From Periconia sp. R9002 (lineage: Eukaryota; Ascomycota; Dothideomycetes; Pleosporales; Periconiaceae), in NCBI GenBank assembly GCA_023627715.1, contig JAMAHW010000142.1, forward strand, positions 1-52,476: a DNA stretch of 52,476 bases, given 5' to 3'. The translations under genes and the position numbers were made by a program. The notes beneath the pieces are model-generated. The model saw only the letters and a list, made by a program, of their open reading frames with translations. It was not told the DNA's origin and did not search any database. Position 1 is the first letter of the stretch, and the number at the start of each line of letters is the position of its first letter. Shown here piece by piece: positions 19,073 to 43,860 of the stretch.

Positions 19073-19863
19073 TACTTAGCCTTACTGTGGGTGTGTAAGG
19101 TAGTTATAATGGCTGTGCGACTGTATGACTGCGCCTCGCCGTTGCCAAGCATTTCAGAATATCAGAATGCTTGACTTTCGAATCGGGAGCAGGGCGAAGA
19201 TCGCAACGACAGCTGCTCACTCGGCTTTCGACATAGCCGTCCAGTTCGCAGGCTCACTGCTGATCCCTTTTCCGAACCGTTATGAGCAACGTCTGAGACT
19301 AATTGAGATGAGAGGATCCTACACGGCGGACATAGCATCAGATAGTGACTAGCACGATGTCAAGTATCAAGACTAAATCTTGCACTTTGGTGGGAGGTCA
19401 GTATGCTATAGCTGTAACCATATACTAAGGTGGAATGACACTGTATATATTGGTGTTATAACAGTCGTACGGTCACCTACTAAGTAGGCCCTTCCACGAG
19501 CACTGCAATCAATCATTTAGCTGTAGGCAGCTGTGCGCCCATATCAATACGTCGAAATCTGTAAATTACACCACTCTAAGTTACTCTTAAACTGCGTCTT
19601 CCGTGCTCTAAGAACCCACACCAACCAAAACAAAACCAGGTGGAATTCGTCCAACGACATACAGCATTGACGGCAATACTTAGCCCATAGACAGAAAAAA
19701 GGAGTGAATCGATTTAATTACTGCTGTACTCAATTGTGGTAATGACAGAAACCCATTTTGTCCGGCCTGAGCTGAAACCCGCAAAGGGAACTCCTTACAA
19801 CGGACAAAATCTCCCGAATCCGCCGACTCCGCACCGTCCCTGCACTGTCCATTTCCCTTCGCA
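19073..19863. other. Intergenic inside the R1 pair
   Basis: The 3' side of the micro-exon gene. It holds one short frame (19125-19352) without protein character and AT-rich sequence. No other feature seen. Confidence 0.4.
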
Positions 19864-20395
19864 TTACTACACTATAATTTAGCGGCAGCCTTGCATACAG
19901 TTCAGCCTGCCAGGCAAAGATATAAAATCTACTTACACACTACACCACGACCAGCAGTTAGTACTTGCCTCATCAGCCCGTCAGGCAGGGACATAGGATC
20001 TACTTACAGCCTACACCACGACTAGCAGTTAGCACTTGCCTCATCAGCCCGTCAGGCAGGGATATAGGATCTACTTACTTGCTGCACCACGACTAGCAGT
20101 TAGCTCCTGCTTCATCAGTTCGTCAGGCAAGGACATAGGATCTACTTACACCTTACACCACGACCAGCAGTTAGTACTTGCCTCATCAGCCCGTCAGGCA
20201 GGGACATAGAATCTACTTACACCCTACACCACGATCAGCAGTTAACGACTGTATAGTACATGTGTGGAAAGGTCTTTATATGCCTACCTGTCGAATCTCA
20301 AGCCCTTGAACGTTGTCGTTTGCCGGTTTGCTAGGACTTGGGAGTGCGAAGGCCATAGAGGGCATAAGCAAGCCGAAGAGCATCAAGGATCTCAT
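19864..20395 (-). CDS. Small secreted-protein gene with a tandem intron / single-codon exon array
   Basis: Exon 1 (20288-20395) encodes 36 residues: signal peptide MRSLMLFGLLMPSMAFA, then a short pro-region ending LEIRQ, like the leaders of fungal secreted peptides. It ends in phase 0 at CAG with donor GTAGGC. Downstream the 71-bp array at about 19910-20240 supplies, in each unit, a GTAAGT donor, a CTAAC-type branch point and, 3 nt before the next donor, a TAG/CAG-type acceptor. The triplets are GGT (20221-20223), GGT (20150-20152, acceptor altered to TAA), CAA (20079-20081), GCT (20008-20010) and TGT (19937-19939). The last, 70-nt intron ends TAG followed directly by TAA (19864-19866), a stop in frame. 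A possible 5'-UTR intron runs 20526 (GTGAGT) to 20422 (ACAG). The splice model is inferred, not proven; skipping of units is plausible. Confidence 0.45.
19905..20245 (-). repeat. 71-bp tandem array, five clear units plus diverged edge units
   Basis: Five units repeat with exact 71-bp spacing of the triplet positions (20221, 20150, 20079, 20008, 19937); the last step to 19864 is 73 bp. On the minus strand each has GTAAGTAGAT, a CTGCCTGACGG-like middle and a CTAACTGCTRG-like 3' part. Variation concentrates at the triplet just before GTAAGT. Half of a unit is also recognisable inside the first intron. Confidence 0.85.
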
Positions 20396-21597
20396 ATTAA
20401 CAAATTTGTGGTAGAAGTTGCCTGTTTTGTGTGATACAATAAAGAAGTAGCTCAAGTGAGAGTTATGAAACCTGAACATATACTGCTCGAAATGTTTACT
20501 TTTTGTACCTTGAGTAGTTTACTCACCTGAATTGCGTGAACGTCATTGTGATTGTTGGCGAATGAGACTAAACTCGGACGACTCCGCCGTGCTTCCACAT
20601 TTCTACTGCATTAGCATGGTTAAGGCAACAAAGGTCCTTTGCAGTTACGCAATGAGACTTTGAACTTGGTTGCTGATGTAATGTATACTGAAGTCATGTA
20701 CTGAAGCAGCATGCTTAACTTTTTTCTTGTCATTGTCGCGCTCGGTTCTTAATGCAAGCTCAGAGGGAAAAAAACTTAACGAGGCTAACGTTCGCAACCA
20801 GCTCATAGAAACCAGCAATCTGCAGTTCTGCCTGCCAATGAGCGGCAACCAATTGCTAGATTCAGATACTCCGGAAATTTGGAGCGCACTAGCAGCGCAG
20901 ATGTGGTAGCGGAAGATGTGCAAGTAATAACCTAACGCGCACAGATGACATGTAATTGGAGGCACTTCGATCGTCAAAATATACTTTGTGATATCTGTCT
21001 TGCCATTATGCTCCGTGCCTTGACCGACATCGTTGCCTTATCATGTTTTGTTGAATCTGACGTTATCGTGCGTAACTTAGCGACTGGAAATGCCTCGAGA
21101 TCGCTATTGGGCTAAGAACAATTCCTTGATCTCAAGCGAATAGTATGCCGGGAGTACAGAGGAGGTCTGCTTGTTACTAAAACGTCACTGTGTGCTGGTT
21201 CGAAGCCAGACATCCGAGAATGCTTTTTTCGCGGCTTTGGTTGGCAGAGGTGTCATTTGTATTCGACAGTAGCACCTTTCAAATGACTGCCCATCTCTCC
21301 CGGCTTTAATTGATGGCACAAAACGGTTCATTCGATACAACCCAGCAACGGTTAAGCAAGCTGCTCCTCAGACGTCAAGCATAGCAGCGGAAACGTTCAT
21401 AGACAGCATGCCGCGGTGAATTGTAGGGCCACTAAAAATCAAGGAGAAATGAAAATGCAGTGCTTCAGACGTTGGAAAGCCATAGGGGTTTCTTCAGTGT
21501 GATGCCTTCTCGCGGCGGTCGTTGAGATCTCAGCCCTGATCCCAATTCCAAAGTCAGACGTTCTGACTTTCCGATATGCTTGGCAACGGCATCGCGC
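20396..21597. other. Promoter side of the secreted-protein gene and intergenic DNA
   Basis: Minus-strand upstream region of the micro-exon gene. A TATAT element lies near 20480, between the putative 5'-UTR intron ends. The rest (20600-21597) carries only short overlapping frames at 20645-20977 without recognisable domains. Confidence 0.4.
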
Positions 21598-23649: not shown

Positions 23650-24768
23650 TCACCATTTTGTGTGCCCTCCCTTTGCATCTATTACAGCTTGGCACCGCTC
23701 ATTCATATTCCCAGTATATCGAGCAAAATCCGATACCTTTAATGCCGTCCACTCGTTTTCTACACATTTCCGTAGCTCTGCGAGAGATCGTGGAGATCTC
23801 TTCGCCACTCTTTGCTTCATCATCCGCCACACATTCTCTATGGGATTCAGATCAGGAGAGCTAGCAGGCCAGCACATCTTGTCTATTCCATGTTTATCGT
23901 GGAGCTGCTTGATGAGCTTGGCGGTATGCGGAGAAGCGCCATCTTCCATTAGAATGACCTGTCTCGAACGGTTCTGCGGGTGCTGAGCCACCCATTCCAT
24001 GAAACAATATACCCAAGGGAGCACCCTTTCTCTATGTACACCGCCTGTATATCTGCCCCATTCTTTTTCCATCACCACCATCGGCCCTTTACCGAATGCC
24101 GAGATGCTTCCGTGAACTGTCCACGAGGAGTAGGTTCTGAACTTAGGAACGCAACAGGACTGGTCATATTTCTCATCTGGTCGCCGGGTGACGTAGACTC
24201 TTCCGAAGACCTCGGTTGAGAAGGAACACTCGTCAGTCCAGACAATGCAAGCCCACTGCTCTGGCTTCCAGCTTAGATGCTCGGTCGCCCACGCCAGGCG
24301 CACCTGCTTCTGCGCTTCGGTGAGCAGAGGCTTCGCAGTAGCGACGCGGCGCCCGTACGACCCCATCTTGAATGCTGCCCTCAGCGCTTTGCGGCCAGCC
24401 TGAACACCCTCTAGTCGAGCGATCTCTTTGTACGTCATGCGACGATGAGCAGCATCAAGGGTAGCCCGAGCAATGAGGCGTTGGCGCACCTGATTTGTGA
24501 TAGCAGACTTTCTTCCTACTGGCTTCTTTGGAGCCTCCACTCCGGACTTGAGCACAGATTGAACGGTTGTCCGAGCAAGTCCCATGCTCGTAGCAATGGC
24601 TTCTGCGGACCAACCCAGGACCTTCGAGAAGGTGAAAATGCGACAGCGCTGCTGGTAGGTCAGTCTAGTCCCTGGCCGTCTGTTGAGGTCTCGGGTCCGC
24701 TCTGACGGCCTCAGAGCATGATACTGGCGAGAAGTTGTTCTGGGCATATTGTATTCTCTGATACGCAT
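23650..24768 (-). mobile_element. Tc1/mariner-type transposase, intact ORF
   Basis: An ATG-initiated 372-residue ORF with no stops or frameshifts. The N-terminal half has paired helix-turn-helix regions (LTYQQRCRIFTFSKVLGWS and LARTTVQSVLKSG). The DDE catalytic triad is D179 (VWTDECSF), D276 (LMEDGASPH) and E311 (PDLNPIENVW), with 34 residues between the last two, the Tc1-type DD34E spacing. It is similar in kind to Molly-like elements of Pleosporales (from memory, not compared). I could not define terminal inverted repeats or the TA duplication. It sits just downstream of nuclease copy A, which it may have interrupted. Confidence 0.85.
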
Positions 24769-25990
24769 ACTGAAGCACCTAAAGGTGCCTGCGCTTTATA
24801 CCTTGAGCTAATACTCTCGCACCTTCCATGAAGCTTTCCCGGGATGACCAATTCTCGCCAATGCTTTGGAATACAGATCCGTCGTATTCGGCTTAAATAT
24901 ATTCATTGCTCCGCATCTGCTGTGTAATCTTTGCCATCTACATACTGATGTAAAGCGTCTTCAGGTGACACTAATCCAGAAAGACGACATGCAGAGGCTG
25001 TGAGTCACTGCAGGAGTCTCATGCAGGCTGTCTTGGCTGACCGTACTGACACCTTATCTTGACCACAGCATCCCCGGTTGTAGAGCAAGGAGCCCAGTCC
25101 GCTTCTGAAGGTGTATGTCGAGGACAAGACTCAGCCACACGTGGATTTATTGGGTCCCGCTTTAGTCCCCGCGGTGGAGCTTGCGCTAGCTCCCCGTGGC
25201 GGGGCAGATCAAAGCTAAGTCTCATACAGTAATGAGATCCAGGGACCACAACGGCTCCACGACGGGAACCGAAACTGGGCCCTCGGAAGGCAAATCAAGC
25301 AAGGGTGGTGTGGGAACGGAACTCGTTCGACATGATTTGGGTAGGATCCGCAGAAGCCACATTGCAATCGGCGCTACAACGCCACTCCCAAAACAACTAG
25401 GTGCCAACCATAGCTGTTACTGTTTTCTGTATCAAAAAGTAGACCTTCACTTGTCCTCGAGGCGATTTTTTTCTTTACCGTAGAATAAAGTACAGTACAC
25501 ATCACGATACGTATTTTATATCTTGCCACAACATTCAAGAGCTCAGCGGATGATGGCGCCGGAGCGAAATGGGTCAGGCATTCTGTGCCAGAACGGGATC
25601 CACTACGGAAACCAAATTAGGCTTCTCAGTTATCTTCCGGAATAAGCGAGGTGGCGCGAGTAGATACAACACTGTAAGGCGCAGGAAAAATATCACGAGT
25701 ATGTTACAATGCTCTATAGGAAAAGGAAAGTCTTGAAGGTAAAACAAACCAAAAACAAATGTCGGGTTTTTTCTTGTTCGCACGTCAAAACCCACTTCAT
25801 CAAGACGTGTAATCCCTTGTCATGGTCCAGCAAATTCACCACCATCTTCCATGTAGAGTTTGAGCTGCCCTGCTAACATAGATACTGTACTCGGCCTTCA
25901 TACGCCCTACCAGATCGAACTAGATATGAATGTCCTGGAGGTCCTTACAGAGAGCTCGCTAGCGTTTGTACGGTCGGTTGAAGCGTGTTA
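24769..25990. other. Transposon right flank and intergenic DNA
   Basis: The first 100-200 bp presumably contain the transposon end, with a GCACCTAAAGGTGC palindrome at 24775-24788. The remainder has only short frames and no recognised gene. Confidence 0.4.
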
Positions 25991-28124: not shown

Positions 28125-31100
28125 ATGGCCGATGTTATACGACTTTTAAGATGCAGTGATACTGGCGACTTCGGTCTCCCTGAAGCATTTGCCAGCGATA
28201 AGGCTGTGCCGAATTATGCAATTCTTTCCCATGGGAAGATGGGAAAGAGGTCACCTTCAACGATCTGGTGGAAGGTACTGGAACGGGCAAAACTGGCTAC
28301 CATAAGATCCGGCTCTGTGCACAACAGGCTCAACGTGATGGTCTCCAATACTTCTGGGTGGATACCTGCTGCATCGATAAATCAAATCCTGCCGAGCTTC
28401 AGAAGGCCATCAACTCGATGTTTCGATGGTATAAGAACGCGAAGAAGTGCTACGTCTATTTACAAGATGTGTCAACTATGAAGCGAAAAGCGAGCGATAG
28501 AAACATGGAACACACCTGGGAGCCAGCATTTCGACAAAGCAGATGGTTCAGGCGGGGCTGGACGCTCCAAGAGCTCCTCGCCCCAATCTCAGTCCAGTTC
28601 TTCTCGCAAGAGTGGAAAAAGCTTGGCGACAAGAATTCATTAGTGCAACACATCCATGAAGCCACAGGGGTCCCGAATGCAGCTCTACTAGGGGAACCTA
28701 TGGTCCGATTCAGCGAAAAGGAGCGATTCTCCTGGATACAAAGCCGCGAGACAAAGATCGAAGAAGACAAAGCGTACGCATTACTTGGTATTTTCGACGT
28801 TGAAATGCCGCTTTGCTATAAAGAAGGATATGCCTGTGCATTCAAAAGGCTTCAAGAAGAGATTAGCAAGCTAAATACTTGTCTCCAAGACTTACGCTCG
28901 ACTGATCCACGTAGTGACAAGAAGCGCATTGAAGACACTAAGGGTGGCCTGCTGCTGGATTCGTACCGCTGGATCCTTGAGAATCCCGAGTTCCAAAGGT
29001 GGCGCGACAGCCAGCGAGACCGATTATTTTGGATAAAGGGCGATCCAGGCAAAGGCAAAACTATGCTGCTCTGCGGCATCATCAACGAATTGAGCAAGTC
29101 GATGTCTAACACAGCACTTCTGGCATACTTCTTCTGCCAGGCCACCGATTCGCGCATTAACAACGCCACGGCCGTACTGCGAGGACTAATATATCTGCTC
29201 GTTTATCAACAGCCATCGCTTGTCGTACACGTGCGAAAGAAGTATGATCATGCGGGGAATACGGTCTTCGAGGATGCCAACGCCTGGGTTACCTTGTCCG
29301 AGATCTTTGTAGATTTAGTGCAAGACCCCAGCTTAAAAGGCATATATCTCATTATCGACGCACTCGACGAATGTGTGACGGATTCGCCGAAATTGCTAGA
29401 TTTCATCGTCCAGACATCCTCCACATCATCGCGCATCAAGTGGATCATATCGAGCCGCAACTGGCCCGACATCGAGGAGCGTCTCGAGCGAGCGCGGGAC
29501 AAGGTCAGGCTGAGTCTTGAGCTAAATGCTAAGTCAGTATCAGCCGCCGTCCATTGCTACATCAAGCATAAGGTGTTACAGCTGGCGCAAGACAAGAAAT
29601 ATAACGATCAGACGAAGGACGCCGTACTAAGGTACCTATACAATAATGCGAACGATACCTTCCTCTGGGCGGCCTTGGTCTGTCAAAACCTTAATCAGAT
29701 GTCGCGGTTCAATATCGTCAAGAAGCTGGAGGCGTTTCCTCCTGGGCTTAGATCTCTCTACAACGGGATGATACACCGCATCAACAACTCAGACGATGCT
29801 GAACTCTGCAGACATATACTCGCCACAGTGACTGTTGTATACCGACCCGTTACGCTAGAGGAGCTTACCTTGCTTGTAGAGGAGCTCGGCGATATAGCTA
29901 AAGAAACAAATTCAGTGCAAGAAGTCGTCCATCTCTGCGGCTCGCTTCTTACCGTACAGGACGGCATTGTTTACTTTGTGCACCAGTCTGCAAAGGATTT
30001 CCTCCTCAAGAAGGCATTTAATATAATATTCCCGTCCAAAAGCGAAGTGGTCCACTACACAGTCTTCTCTCGATCGCTAACAGCCATGTCTGACGTACTA
30101 CGACGGGATATATTTAACCTAGGTGCTTTAGGATATCCTGTTAAGCAGATCGAACAACCAAAGCCTGATCCGTTAGCAGCATTGCGGTACTCGTGTATTC
30201 ACTGGATTGATCACCTTTGCGAGTATATTTCTAACTCTTCAACATACGATAAGAGCATTCTTATGAGTGGCGGCGTTGTGGACGGGTTTTTGAGAAAGAA
30301 GTATCTTTACTGGCTCGAAGCTGTTAGCCTTTGCATGAGCATGTCAAAGGGTGTAGTCTCAATGTCCAGACTGGAGGCCTTGATCAAAGTAATTCCCTAC
30401 CAGCCTATACCCTATAATGCACTTATTGCTAATCAGGATAGGAGAGAGCGGCTACATCCTCGACAATGGAAGTGGTTCGAGACGCAAACCGATTCATCAT
30501 GTACCATAAACCGGCAATTGAGAGTAGTCCACTCCAGGCATATAGCGCGCTTCTGTTTAGTCCAACTGGCAGCGTCATACGGGCACTATTCAAAAATGAA
30601 GAGCCACGGGGCATAGTAATTAGCCCAGGAATGCAGCAGCAATGGAGTAGCTGCCTTTCGACGCTCGAGGGCCACAGCGCCATTGTCACCTCGGTGGCCT
30701 TCTCCCACAACTCGACCCTGCTGGCGTCCGCGTCCTACGACCGCACGGTTAGGGTGTGGAAGGTGGGCAGCGGCGAGTGCGTGTTGACACTCAAGGACCA
30801 CAGCAACTCAGTCACTTCAGTGGCCTTCTCCCACGACTCGACCCTGCTAGCGTCCGCGTCCAACGACCGCACGGTTAGGGTGTGGAAGGTGGGTAGCGGC
30901 GAGTGCGTGTTAACGCTCGAGGGCCACAGCGCCATTGTCACCTCGGTAGCCTTCTCCCACGACTCGACCCTACTGGCATCCGCGTCCTACGACCGCACAG
31001 TTAGGGTGTGGAAGGTAGGCAGCGGCGAGTACGTGTCGACGTTTAAGAGCCACAGCGACTGGGTCGCTTCAGTAGCCTTCTCCCACGACTTAACCCTACT

Positions 31101-31884
31101 AGCGTCTGCGTCCTATGACCGTACAGTTAGGGTGCAGAAGGTAGACAGCGGCAAGTGCGTGTTAACGCTTAAGGACCACAGGGACCCCGTCACCTTAGTA
31201 GCCTTCTCCTACGATTCAATCCTGCTAGCGTCCGCGTCCCGTAATAGTATAGTTAGGTTGTGGAAGGTGGGTAGCGGCGAGTGCGTGTTAACGCTTGAGG
31301 GCCACAGGGACTCCGTCACTTCGGTAGCCTTTTCCTACGATTCAACCCTGCTAGCGTCCGCGTCCGCGTCCTACGACCGCACGATTAGGGTGTGGAAGGT
31401 GAGCAGCGGCGAGTGCGTGTCGACGCTTAAGGGCCACGGGGACTCCGTCACTTCGGTAACCTTCTCCCACGATTCAACCCTGCTAGCGTCCGCGTCCGCA
31501 TTCTACGACAGCACAGTCAGGGTGTGGAAGGTGGGCAGCGGCGAGTGCTTTCAGACAAGCAACGTTAAGCAAACACCCTATCGCATTTCGTTCGACTCCA
31601 GTGATAACTTTCTGATCACTGACATTGGCGTTATTAATGTCAGTACTCAGTCGACTACTACTCCAGCGTCATCTAGTGCAGAAACTCAGACCACTCAGTA
31701 TCAAGGCCTAGCTTTAGGTGCAGGCGGCGTATGGATAACATACGATTCAGAGAATCTATTAAGGTTGCCTTCGGAGTATCGACCATCTTGCTCAGTGGTA
31801 TCAGGAGATGTTATCACTATGGGTGTTGGGAACGGAAGAGTATGGATGTGTGAAGTTCAAGGTAGCAAGTCCTTGAAATGTTAG
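28125..31884 (+). pseudogene. HET-NACHT-WD40 STAND receptor (HET-E/HNWD type), two frameshifts
   Basis: The ATG at 28125 opens MADVIRLLRCSDTG and a HET start (NYAILSH). The frame then breaks near 28232, where about four bases appear to be missing. HET continues in another frame (GLQYFWVDTCCIDK, RWYKNAKKCYVYL, RRGWTLQELLAP). NACHT follows: Walker A GDPGKGKTM (about 29040) and Walker B YLIIDALDEC (about 29350). A second frame change near 30435-30465 separates this from FIMYHKPAIESSPLQAY and seven WD40 repeats ending about 31550. The C-terminus is at 31884. Family members sense non-self or modified ligands through the WD40 surface, oligomerise by NACHT and trigger cell death by HET. No GT-AG intron of suitable length repairs either break, so this is a pseudogene or contains sequence errors. 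R1 copies flank it in inverted orientation. Confidence 0.8.
30661..31554 (+). repeat. Seven near-identical WD40 repeats (about 126 bp each)
   Basis: Each unit has the frame HS..VTSVAFSHDSTLLASAS.DRTVRVWKVGSGEC. The framework residues are almost constant while the residues after the GH/DH turn vary (S-A-I, S-N-S, S-A-I, S-D-W, R-D-P, R-D-S, G-D-S). Two units carry an extra Ala-Ser codon pair from a GCGTCC duplication. This is the pattern seen in HET-E-type receptors under concerted evolution with selection on ligand-contact positions. Confidence 0.9.
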
Positions 31885-39837: not shown

Positions 39838-40767
39838 CCCTACAACTATTTCTGCGTCGCGGGTTGCACCTGTCTATGCAACTTAGACGTTTCCCTGTCT
39901 GCATGTATAGATATAAATAAGTAGTCGCACAGCGTCTGCATATCAAACGCATTATCGCTCGCGCTAGGATATAGTAAAGGAAGCCTGATGTGCGAGTTCG
40001 CCAGGGTGGAACGAGAAGCATTACTAATGCAGCCAGTTCTCATACTTGCTCGCGACAGTGACTCGCCTGCAATATAAGCTGCTGTTTAGCCTATAAAAAT
40101 CGCCTGTATATGTAAGGCGTAAAAAAGGGCACAGTTATGTAAATAAGGAGGAGGCCGAGCGACAATAGCCCCCTCTGATCGCATACAAAAAAGGCGACGA
40201 AAACGTCATGTCTGGTCCTGGATGTAACATCACATTTAGTGGCCATATTAACATGAAATTCTGCAGATCACTCCTCGGGTTCACATTTAATATAGTGATC
40301 GGTGTGCTGCGTTGGCCCACATGACCCTCATGACAGCTACTTTTATGTCATTCTTTTATTGGGCCACTGCGAAGTCACACAAAAAGCTAGCATCACAAGT
40401 GATCATCACATTGAATTCTTAGTACAGCAGGTCTGAATAACTAGAATGATCAATATTTACACATGATCGTAGTATGAGATGATCAAATGATTACAAGTAG
40501 GGCAGAAAATCACTTAGATCGTAATTGGATAAATCGTGAAGGTGTATGGCAAATGCCATCGGTTTGCCTTTTCACCCCGAAGCATTTATTGCCACATCTC
40601 GATTTCAATGTACAATCCGCGGAACGTATTGTTTTGCTGCGTCAAGCAGGAAACCTGTTCTCCATACTCCAAGTTATATAGCCCAATGTGTCCTCAGAAC
40701 TGCACAATAAACATTTCTATTTGAACAGCTGATTCCAGAATACTCAAGCTTTCTTTGACCCATCACG
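39838..40767 (+). other. Intergenic upstream of the NRPS-like gene
   Basis: Holds R2 copy 3 (40019-40075) and AT-rich sequence. A promoter for the NRPS-like gene should lie in 40450-40767 but no specific element is clear. Confidence 0.4.
40019..40075 (+). repeat. Dispersed repeat R2, copy 3
   Basis: CATTACTAATGCAGCCAGTT through GACTCGCCTGCAATA, matching 1410-1466 and 10337-10393 with mostly transitions. Confidence 0.55.
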
Positions 40768-43700
40768 ATGAACACAGAATATCCACTCCTACATGGAGTC
40801 AAGTATGGCCTGGCGGATGCCATTGCCCATAACGCGCGTATTTATGGAGGCAGGGAGGCTATTGTCGAAGAAGGCTTCTCCATCACATACAGCAGCCTTG
40901 ATGCTAGAGCAAAGGACCTTGCTACGACTCTACTTAAGCAAGGCCTTGATTACGAAGACACTGTTGGCATTCTGACTAGCTTTGGAGCCCAGCATGTCAT
41001 TGCTCAAGTAGCCGTAGTCTACGCTGGGGGTACCTGCCTTCCACTAGACGGGAGCCACCTTGATGATGACCTGCGGGCTCGCTTGAGAATGGCTGAAGTC
41101 AAATACTTGATTGTTGATGACAATCACCGCGATCGGACCCTTTCCGTTCAACATGTCGTCAATATTGGCATTCAACCCATCGATTCCCCAGACTTCAGAA
41201 GCCTGGGCAGCCTGAGAGAGGTTCACTCATCGTACCGTTCGCATATTTTCTTCACGTCAGGTACGACAGGCAGACCGAAGGCGGTGCAAGTATCAGCGGC
41301 TGGCATTCTCCGCGTCGCTAATGATCCGGTCTGCGGTGCTATCTCGGGCGAGGAGAGGGTTGCCCACATCAACAACCCATGTTTTGACGTGTCGCTCATC
41401 GACATTTGGGGTTCTCTTCTCAACGGAGCTACCATCGTCGTCCTCGATCGAAAGCTTCTGGTTGACCCAGAACTTTTCGGGCGTTCTCTCAAGGAGAAGC
41501 GGATTACCTACGCCTTTATTCCTACTGCGCTGTTTCATGTCATTGCTTTGTCGTGTCCTACTGCATTCTCTAGCCTCAGTACTCTCATTGTGGGCGGCGA
41601 GGCCTTGAGCGCAGAGCCATGCAGGGTCGTGCTGCAGAGTGGACCACCGGCCCGGCTGATAAATGGCTACGGGCCTACAGAATGTACCGTCCTCTCGCAC
41701 AGGCACATAGTCACGGTCGAGGATGTGGCTGCAGGGCATATCCCAATCGGACAACCCCTTTTACAGACTTCGGAAAAAGTCTTGGACGACGCTCTTGAAG
41801 AAGTCACGGGAGACACACCGGGCGAGCTATGCCTCGGGGGTCAAGGCGTTTCCACTGGGTATCTGAACGACCAGAAAGCAACGCAGAACGCCTTCATCAT
41901 GATGCCAGCGAGTGAGACTGGTGCTGATCCCGTCCGAATCTATCGTACTGGCGATTTAGTATGCAGAGATGGCGCAAACAATTTGATCTGGCTCGGTCGC
42001 AAAGACCGTGAGGTCAAGATTAGGGGCCATCGCGTTGCACTGGATGTTGTCGAAACCGAGCTCCTTCATACAGGCCTAGTTGAAGCAGCCGTCGCAATGA
42101 AGGTGACACCACCAGATTCCAATTCTGCTATTCTAGTGGCCTGTATTACCTACCGTTCTCCAGACGCAAGCGATGATAAGCTTTTAGCAGCAGCGAGGGC
42201 GCGGCTTCCGAGTTACATGGTGCCACAACCAGTGGCGTTTGAGAAGATGCCAATGACTGTGCATGGAAAAGTCGATAGGAAGCAAGCCAGCGAAGATTTG
42301 ATGCATTTGCTACGGGATCGTGAAGCCAATGTTGAATCTCAAACCTCTAGCATCCCAGCTTCTACAGAGACTCGGCTCCAGGCTTTATGGAGCCGTGTCC
42401 TGATCACCGTGCACGAAGAGAATATACGATCTGAATCAAATTTCTTCAATCTAGGTGCAACATCCTTGCATGTTGCCTCTTTGATTCCACTAGCGCGGAA
42501 GGTGCTAGGTATTCAGCTGTCATATAAAACTGTTTATGAAAACCCAACTCTAAGTGGCCTCGCACAAGTAATCCAGAGGAAAACGACGAAAACGTTTGCA
42601 GAACAAGTGGAAGAGACAAAGGCGCTCATGCGCAAAGATGTTTCTACGCTTGGAAAGGATATATCCATACCTACCGATCCACCGGTCAACTGGCGTTCTA
42701 GCAATGAGGGGAATCTATTTTTAACTGGCGCCACTGGCTTTATTGGAGCTTTCATGCTGCTAGAACTGCTTCGTATCCCTGAGGTTAAGACAGTTCGATG
42801 TCTGATCCGGGCAGACCGTCCGCAAAGCGCTTTCGCGAAGCTGTACAAGAACTTAGACAAGTACAGGCTGCGGGAACTGATTGAGAACTACAAGGAGAAG
42901 ATCAAAGTCGTACCTGGCGATTTTGCAGAGAACAATCTCGGCATGAATACATCTTCTTATCTGGAATTGGCTGACTGGGCCAGTGCCGTGTATCATATTG
43001 GCGCGCAGGTCAATTTCAACGAGCCATACAGTGCTTCGCGGACCCCAAACGTACTGGGTACGATGAACATCCTCCGGTTCGTTGCAACAGGGAAGCCGAA
43101 GGCGCTCCACTACGCCTCAACTATTTCAGTCTTCGGTCCAACTGGCTTGATACGAGATGAAGTAAGCATCGTGGACGAAAACACCTCCATCACACCCTTC
43201 CTTGACTCAGTCATGCCATATGAGGTTGGCTATGGTCAGACTAAGTGGGTAGTGGATGAGATTGTATTGGATCTGATGCGGCACGGGTTTCCAACCGCTA
43301 TATACCGCTTGGGGTTTGTGCTATGCAACAGTGAGACTGGCGTTTGTAACCCTGATGACTTCCTCAGCCGCTGGCTTGAGGACTGCATAAGGTTAGGCAA
43401 GTATCCTTTGCTCCTCGATATGCGCGAAGAAGTTTTACTAATCGACTATGTTTCCTCCGCAATAAGGAAGATTTCGATGTCCAACGAAAATCTCGGCCAA
43501 GTATACCATATTGTCCCGGATATTCCATCAAGTATGGACATGAACCACCTTTTTTGCACTGTCGGAAAGCATGCCGGCGTTGAGATGACCGGTTTATCAT
43601 ATCCAGACTGGCTGGAAGTGATACAAAGAGAATTGGAGGGTGGCTCTGAACTTCGACTGAAGCCTTTACTACCGATGCTAGAAGAAAAGGTTCTTGGAGA

Positions 43701-43860
43701 ACTCACACGGGTCGAAGTATACAAGCGAATGGCTCGATTCAAACAGGACAACACCGCAACTGCACTTACGCAAACCAAAGAATGGAAGTCGCTCAGGGGC
43801 TCGGCAATTAATGAAGCAGATCTCAAGCCTTATGTTCAATTCCTAATGGCGGAAGGTTAA
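40768..43860 (+). CDS. NRPS-like A-T-R enzyme (adenylation, carrier, thioester reductase)
   Basis: A single-exon 1030-residue ORF. The adenylation domain (about 20-510) has A3 FTSGTTGRPKAV, A4 FDVSLIDIWGSLLNG, A5 NGYGPTE, A7 YRTGDLV, A8 GRKDREVKIRGHRV and A10 HGKVDRK. The carrier domain (about 545-600) has FFNLGATSLHV, where Ser is the phosphopantetheine site. The reductase domain (about 645-1025) has LFLTGATGFIGAF (NAD(P)H) and YGQTKWV (YxxxK). It lacks a condensation domain, so it should activate one carboxylic acid or amino acid and release it as an aldehyde or alcohol. My reading of the pocket code is roughly D-V-I-T-I-G-G-V-L-K, uncertain. Its architecture recalls Lys2-type reductases, but the pocket need not be for aminoadipate. 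No tailoring, transport or regulator genes adjoin it. Confidence 0.9.
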   Translation: MNTEYPLLHGVKYGLADAIAHNARIYGGREAIVEEGFSITYSSLDARAKDLATTLLKQGLDYEDTVGILTSFGAQHVIAQVAVVYAGGTCLPLDGSHLDDDLRARLRMAEVKYLIVDDNHRDRTLSVQHVVNIGIQPIDSPDFRSLGSLREVHSSYRSHIFFTSGTTGRPKAVQVSAAGILRVANDPVCGAISGEERVAHINNPCFDVSLIDIWGSLLNGATIVVLDRKLLVDPELFGRSLKEKRITYAFIPTALFHVIALSCPTAFSSLSTLIVGGEALSAEPCRVVLQSGPPARLINGYGPTECTVLSHRHIVTVEDVAAGHIPIGQPLLQTSEKVLDDALEEVTGDTPGELCLGGQGVSTGYLNDQKATQNAFIMMPASETGADPVRIYRTGDLVCRDGANNLIWLGRKDREVKIRGHRVALDVVETELLHTGLVEAAVAMKVTPPDSNSAILVACITYRSPDASDDKLLAAARARLPSYMVPQPVAFEKMPMTVHGKVDRKQASEDLMHLLRDREANVESQTSSIPASTETRLQALWSRVLITVHEENIRSESNFFNLGATSLHVASLIPLARKVLGIQLSYKTVYENPTLSGLAQVIQRKTTKTFAEQVEETKALMRKDVSTLGKDISIPTDPPVNWRSSNEGNLFLTGATGFIGAFMLLELLRIPEVKTVRCLIRADRPQSAFAKLYKNLDKYRLRELIENYKEKIKVVPGDFAENNLGMNTSSYLELADWASAVYHIGAQVNFNEPYSASRTPNVLGTMNILRFVATGKPKALHYASTISVFGPTGLIRDEVSIVDENTSITPFLDSVMPYEVGYGQTKWVVDEIVLDLMRHGFPTAIYRLGFVLCNSETGVCNPDDFLSRWLEDCIRLGKYPLLLDMREEVLLIDYVSSAIRKISMSNENLGQVYHIVPDIPSSMDMNHLFCTVGKHAGVEMTGLSYPDWLEVIQRELEGGSELRLKPLLPMLEEKVLGELTRVEVYKRMARFKQDNTATALTQTKEWKSLRGSAINEADLKPYVQFLMAEG

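Follow-up and report, generated by a model that had tools for sequence, protein, structure and literature searches.

The micro-exon genes (MEGs) of schistosomes consist of numerous small exons, each a multiple of three in length, and code for secreted products that can vary with exon use. Among the known systems, their way of working is most alike to that of the fungal locus presented here, both having many small in-frame exons and secreted products, the latter predicted in our case. Unlike MEGs, every micro-exon of the arrays described below comprises one codon, the introns are tandem near-copies and each array is built from different introns. Regarding the sizes and phase expected of a micro-exon gene, both fit in 48 exons, parsed from genomic sequence alone.

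Tiny exons have also been reported in filamentous ascomycetes. A 2024 paper describes a functional micro-exon of Xlr2 in Trichoderma virens and states functional micro-exons in filamentous fungi as previously undescribed (PMC11121469), and two 3-nt exons are mentioned for lipS of Dactylellina haptotyla in PMC5639578. In view of the latter, a remark of the original prediction, that no fungal case with single-codon exons was known, needs correcting. Xlr2 and lipS present one or two such exons in ordinary genes, whereas here they are arrayed in tandem and their codons are hypervariable. Among the papers listed by searches of open-access literature, none describes, by title and abstract start, introns arrayed in tandem around one-codon exons. 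Considering repetition, the fungal NLR genes het-d and het-e carry highly internally conserved repeats with few hypervariable sites, according to PMC12222747, resembling the present arrays in their near-identical repeats, hypervariable sites, unit gain and loss, and occurrence in receptor genes; however, the het-d/het-e repeat is coding WD40, whereas here the conserved part is intronic, with one exonic codon per unit. Introner-like elements and repeated stwintrons of fungi are also related intron sequences that were multiplied, but they are dispersed over many genes (PMC8469720), whereas the arrays here stand in tandem at one site.

The locus lies on the minus strand of the window, the whole 52,476-nucleotide stretch of Periconia sp. 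R9002 that was analysed (contig JAMAHW010000142.1, here C142), and its features are collected in Table 1. The array is real, and most of what had been claimed for it from the letters was borne out. Exon 1 ends in phase 0 at 20288, directly before GTAGGC, and the GTAAGT donors at 20220, 20149, 20078, 20007 and 19936 are exactly 71 apart, as proposed. The triplets GGT, GGT, CAA, GCT and TGT stand between an acceptor and the next donor, and a branch-point-like CTAAC or TTAAC is located about 20 nt before the acceptor in 5/5 introns preceding a triplet. These acceptors are, in order, TAG, TAA, CAG, TAG and TAG, so the one mutated acceptor that had been noticed is indeed present. Tandem Repeats Finder (TRF) delimits a 71-bp array at 19902-20244, with 4.8 copies and 85% matches; the likeness to the repeat is confined to the 3' part in intron 1 and to the 5' part in intron 6, whose 3' part has diverged.

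Table 1. Features of the C142 array and its leader in the window.
Feature	Positions	Strand	Remarks
Possible 5' UTR intron	20422..20526	-	GTGAGT...ACAG, upstream of ATG, tentatively read from the sequence
Exon 1, 36-codon leader ending LEIRQ	20288..20395	-	ATG at 20395, phase 0 end
Intron 1	20224..20287	-	64 nt, donor GTAGGC, acceptor TAG
Micro-exon 1 GGT (Gly)	20221..20223	-	
Intron 2	20153..20220	-	68 nt, GTAAGT...CTAAC...TAA (mutated acceptor)
Micro-exon 2 GGT (Gly)	20150..20152	-	position set by register
Intron 3	20082..20149	-	68 nt, acceptor CAG
Micro-exon 3 CAA (Gln)	20079..20081	-	purine-ended, as only 2/48 triplets
Intron 4	20011..20078	-	68 nt
Micro-exon 4 GCT (Ala)	20008..20010	-	
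Intron 5	19940..20007	-	68 nt
Micro-exon 5 TGT (Cys)	19937..19939	-	
Intron 6	19867..19936	-	70 nt with acceptor GTGTAG, or 65 nt to 19872 with TATAG
TAA stop	19864..19866	-	applies if the GTGTAG acceptor is used
Alternative last exon after TATAG	19680..19871	-	63 codons, same phase, three Cys, then stop

The end of the gene is less defined than originally proposed. The claim that a stop codon directly follows the last acceptor holds with GTGTAG, ending at 19867, but not with TATAG, which ends at 19872, five bases upstream, and is followed in phase by 63 open codons. This frame is no strong sign, as about 10% of the 1678 YAG sites on the minus strand of the window precede at least 68 open codons; it has no Pfam match, and a genome search at E<=10 returns only itself. 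The claim that the units differ most at the triplets was upheld by comparing the four complete units pairwise, site by site, giving 13/18 differences at the triplets vs 38/408 in the other 68 columns; three columns drawn at random reach 13 differences in 61/200,000 draws.

Arrays of the C142 type are probably single-codon exons, spliced individually and translated, judging from their sequence. C142 would then be a secreted-peptide gene, where a single short spliceosomal intron has been copied in tandem behind a leader, with 3-nt exons between the copies, the introns leaving one by one and every unit contributing one amino acid. In the predicted product, the leader up to LEIRQ would be followed by Gly-Gly-Gln-Ala-Cys, with a single Gly should unit 2 be skipped, and then by the stop or by a short last exon. 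Duplicating a unit would add one residue and leave the frame unshifted, and selection would have altered the codons as the introns stayed similar. For spliceosomes, some distance between an acceptor and the donor that follows is generally considered necessary, and a 3-nt exon between them is sterically hard unless the introns are removed successively. Short fungal introns are recognised as units; because of this, and because the donor that follows a removed intron then has an ordinary exon in front of it, sequential removal is the most likely route. An array with as many as 24 such 3-nt exons would put this spacing limit to a direct test.

The TAA acceptor of unit 2 counts against individual splicing of each intron, and because of it micro-exon 2 may be skipped. 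The broken acceptor would rather suit an array mostly spliced as one intron, with any subset of the codons kept in some transcripts, which we regard as improbable. In its favour as well, all parsed exons are 3 nt long, thus any subset would keep the frame.

Individually spliced codons are also suggested by the recurrence of the design in the same genome. The pattern GTAAGT-N44..74-YAG-NNN-GTAAGT gives 47 matches in the 42.9-Mb genome vs 7 for the reversed pattern, 36 of them falling in five arrays (C124, 5; C142, 3; C161, 3; C197, 6; C211, 19), 1 at C214 and 10 elsewhere. The four arrays besides C142 have other intron sequences but the same 3-nt design; between arrays, blastn at E<=0.01 pairs solely C161 with C211, weakly (28 nt, 79%, E 0.006). 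It seems that the same design would have been built from other introns in leader genes (C124 and C197), in a receptor-like NACHT-ankyrin gene (C211) and in the short C161 array. C161 (L037) and C214 (L040 = C214:1-5000, near 823-896) are short arrays without a leader, both probably degenerate; C214 may hold a degenerate array, having one complete intron, no blastn match to other arrays and a likeness to C161 by eye.

The parsed micro-exons (C211, 24; C197, 9; C124, 7; C142, 5; C161, 3) are 3 nt long in 48/48 cases, with a parser that demands 3-nt exons, and cutting at GTAAGT alone gives the same picture. Their introns measure 64-84 nt, with one exception of 166 nt in C197 unit 8 (L038), about twice the usual length by an apparent insertion that left the flanking exon pattern intact. 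The donors of the 48 introns are GTAAGT (42), GTGAGT (3), GTAAGC (2) and GTAGGC (1), the acceptors are TAG (46), CAG (1) and TAA (1), and a CTAAY-type site occurs within the last 35 nt in 42/48. Just 6/48 unit lengths are divisible by 3, consequently reading through the array would lose the frame. No new array was revealed by related patterns, whether with GTGAGT donors (11 matches vs 5 in the control), GTATGT donors (12 vs 13), short spacing (3 vs 6) or long spacing (2, one inside C124, vs 5). A wide pattern allowing exon sizes of 1-16 gave 113 matches vs 192 reversed, with no overall enrichment, and among the matches listed the clusters have spacing 3. A chain scan used loci partly picked by the 3-nt pattern and is biased as a test. 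The contigs that carry the arrays measure 15.8 to 74.6 kb, and larger contigs carry none of them. By GC content, contamination is not indicated, as the array loci (0.46-0.505) fall inside the range of 30 pattern-picked samples taken from larger contigs (0.20-0.55).

The variation within the arrays is shaped like that of codons. Column tests were applied to 42/48 triplets, leaving out C161 (3 units) and dropping the first introns of C142 and C197 and the 166-nt C197 intron as unalignable. In C211, with 24 units, diversity reaches 0.768 at position 1 and 0.746 at position 2 of the triplet vs a maximum of 0.672 over 76 intron columns. Position 3 is only C or T there, with 144 transitions and 0 transversions; the transition to transversion counts are 3176:876 in the introns vs 146:272 at positions 1 and 2. 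Taken jointly among adjacent column pairs, positions 1 and 2 rank 1/78, 2/81, 2/79 and 1/70 in the four arrays (Fisher p 9e-5), a probability that serves as a guide only, as do the others for these arrays, because units within one array are related. Taken singly, 10 (position 1) and 3 (position 2) of 77 intron columns are equally or more diverse in C197, and 1 and 5 of 79, respectively, in C124. From positions 1 and 2 we infer that the codons were diversified by selection.

The last base of the triplet is the -1 position of the next donor, where G is usual and a pyrimidine makes a poor U1 match, a point against single-codon exons. C or T ends 46/48 triplets vs a proportion of 0.526 among 3615 codons taken as background from five frames, and 31/31 of the triplets with a synonymous choice, where 15.7 would be expected. 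Triplets for Lys, Glu, Gln, Met and Trp number 2/48 vs 0.183 of the background. In C142, the three transversions at position 3 all come from CAA. A recent block duplication of units is seen in C211, whose recent copies (units 3, 6, 7, 8 and 13, 15, 16, 17; 2.6-5.2% apart) retain their triplets; pairs of units share a triplet in 5/8 cases when less than 10% apart and in 3/41 when 10-15% apart.

Those columns bear on a simpler account, where a duplicated intron array (about 420 nt in C142, 1.9 kb in C211) is removed whole as one long intron, the triplets being intronic. It agrees with the first donor and last acceptor of C142, which are in phase. The triplets should then evolve like intron columns, yet positions 1 and 2 lead in diversity, mostly by transversions, position 3 stays C/T in C211, C124 and C197, and the 3-nt spacing persists through intron indels. 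Removal of the array in one piece would leave the codon-shaped variation without a cause, and this account appears unlikely, even with the C211 junction described below.

The largest array, with 24 codons at L039:4241-6145 (-), follows an 819-codon frame at L039:6146-8602 (-), which has NPHP3_N and ankyrin matches over their cut-offs, the NACHT model itself reaching 24.4 bits, below its cut-off of 26.7. The C211 gene thereby shows the NACHT-type domain with C-terminal repeats of an NLR-like receptor. Downstream of the array, the ankyrin-like TPIRRAKELGHEAVVRLLL is followed by an early stop, which counts against single-codon exons; the array would be located in a loop between two ankyrin repeats. 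Removal of the whole array would also yield a near-normal ankyrin junction, which counts against single-codon exons and in favour of one long intron; the C211 products with all codons in and with all codons out could both suit the loop, as optional inclusion would have it.

The relatives of this gene number at least 3362, of which 120 are listed, and the counts below come from these 120. The closest named one among the matches listed is from Byssothecium circinans (85%; Pleosporales). At least seven listed relatives (P0015, P0036, P0053, P0058, P0061, P0071 and P0098; six from Elaphomyces and one from Dendryphion) run straight on at the array site with an uninterrupted, DYKY..-TPLSRA-like protein, similar to the junction expected after removal of the C211 array as a single long intron; the protein alone reads the same for an intron removed and an intron absent. 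In Elaphomyces (P0036, P0053, P0058, P0061, P0071 and P0098), the two or three residues before TPLSRA differ (KI, NV, FT, IF, KIV and TF), and they might be leftover single-codon exons.

At the array site, 31/120 listed relatives read in through a donor-like VS (GS in P0001, with Gly where the donor GTA should give Val), and their tails are like a C211 unit in 16 cases (P0001, P0003, P0004, P0007, P0008, P0009, P0010, P0013, P0016, P0019, P0021, P0025, P0027, P0030, P0051 and P0055) and unlike it in 15. Tails of 27 residues ending Y-[SR]-[VLM] are found in 11/16 of the C211-like cases; those 11 were picked by their ends, hence the figure is 11/16 and not 11/11, and the other 5/16 (P0007, P0009, P0010, P0016 and P0051) end otherwise than predicted. 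Back-translated, the fitting ends agree with TAT AGN NNG TAA, that is, TATAG, NNT and GTAA, suggesting, from the protein ends, that a first one-codon exon stands directly before another donor and that its codon differs between proteins. The named sources among the 11 are Phaeosphaeriaceae sp. PMI808 and Monosporascus sp. mg162, the latter from Xylariales, another class. In P0021 (Phaeosphaeriaceae sp. PMI808), an insert, IRARDYPYHRYDRPYG, has a likeness to the C211 peptide at YDxPYG, which is no more than a hint, as 169/5000 shuffles equal it. Some fungal gene models may thus end too early at such arrays, as these tails hint.

Those tails could instead be genuine protein ends, with the first intron of the ankyrin gene left unspliced and coding for a conserved 27-residue tail, the remaining array being an untranslated repeat. 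This is suggested by 11 relatives of the 120 listed with tails equal in length and similar in sequence, and by the C211 introns, where third positions are the most variable ones when the donor frame is read on (0.266 vs 0.165 and 0.137; 13 units of 77 nt). However, the donor frame has stops within the first C211 unit, and 9/11 tails are from sources without an organism name, where gene models are often built without introns. Moreover, such a coding tail explains neither the codon-shaped variation over 24 units nor the leader genes, and it is very improbable. The reading of single-codon micro-exons is supported by the four additional arrays, the codon-shaped variation and the 11/16 tails that fit a 3-nt exon followed by GTAA.

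Leaders that look signal-like by eye precede three arrays, ending in LEIRQ (C142), LDQRQT (C124) and LELR (C197). By eye, the C142 leader presents a signal-peptide-like and a pro-part, with LxxR at its Kex2-like end, suggesting secretion; its single genome match at E<=10 is itself, and no protein relatives were found for it or for the C197 product. In fungal pro-domains LxxR is a Kex2 motif, for which Asp at P3 is unfavourable, according to PMC8528282; the LDQR of the C124 leader carries Asp at this position. The Kex2-processed pro-domain proteins of the same paper are similar in having a signal peptide, a pro-part and LxxR before the mature part; unlike them, the mature part here is mostly spelled by one-codon exons. 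If Kex2 cuts at LxxR, the mature peptide predicted from the sequence would be almost wholly coded by micro-exons in C142 and C124. The residues predicted after the leader are G-G-Q-A-C for C142, C-T-C-V-P-C-G then PEKAA-stop for C124, and F-G-V-G-F-D-N-R-R, a 12-codon exon and PK-stop for C197, with exon ends set by eye in the last two.

Other classes of elements were considered and rejected. Dispersed introners do not agree with genome-wide searches limited to three queries, the C142 array, a single C142 unit and the C211 array, each of which, at the settings used, finds no copy outside its own array, nor is there an introner-type fold or inverted-repeat symmetry, as the mean z per array is 0.05 to 0.98 (48 single introns, 60 shuffles each). 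Stwintrons do not agree with the units, each of which runs from its own donor to its own acceptor, with no nesting. Regarding a RiPP of the dikaritin type, 61 UstYa matches occur in the genome and 0 on C124, C142, C161, C197, C211 or C214, which are short contigs, a location beyond their ends being possible. The fold of the whole C142 array has a z of +1.15, with nothing unusual, and no RNA family was found in the window at Rfam gathering scores; a CTGATGA in the C142 unit may resemble hammerhead or box C motifs.

Should RNA confirm it, the one-codon exon array would be a new kind of gene layout, by which short peptides might be varied. It would present a new route to protein variation, where conserved introns bear single hypervariable codons, and, if units can be skipped, it would be relevant to the diversification of secreted peptides and receptor loops in fungi. 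With one codon per exon, the duplication, loss or skipping of a unit would alter the peptide or loop residue by residue with the frame unbroken. A broader proposal, that such arrays are a diversification device of filamentous ascomycetes, serving secreted peptides and an NLR-like ankyrin loop with many variants per individual, is speculative and rather doubtful.

Regarding the surroundings of the C142 array, a HET/NACHT frame stands before a WD40 frame that contains seven 126-bp repeats (81% matches) at 28202-31884 (+) of the window, 8 kb from the array, and together they look like an NLR of the highly internally conserved type. In addition, the window holds a Tc1/mariner-like transposase frame (DDE_3, HTH_Tnp_Tc3_2) at 23650-24795 (-) and a single-frame NRPS-like reductase (AMP-binding, PP-binding, NAD_binding_4) at 40759-43860 (+).
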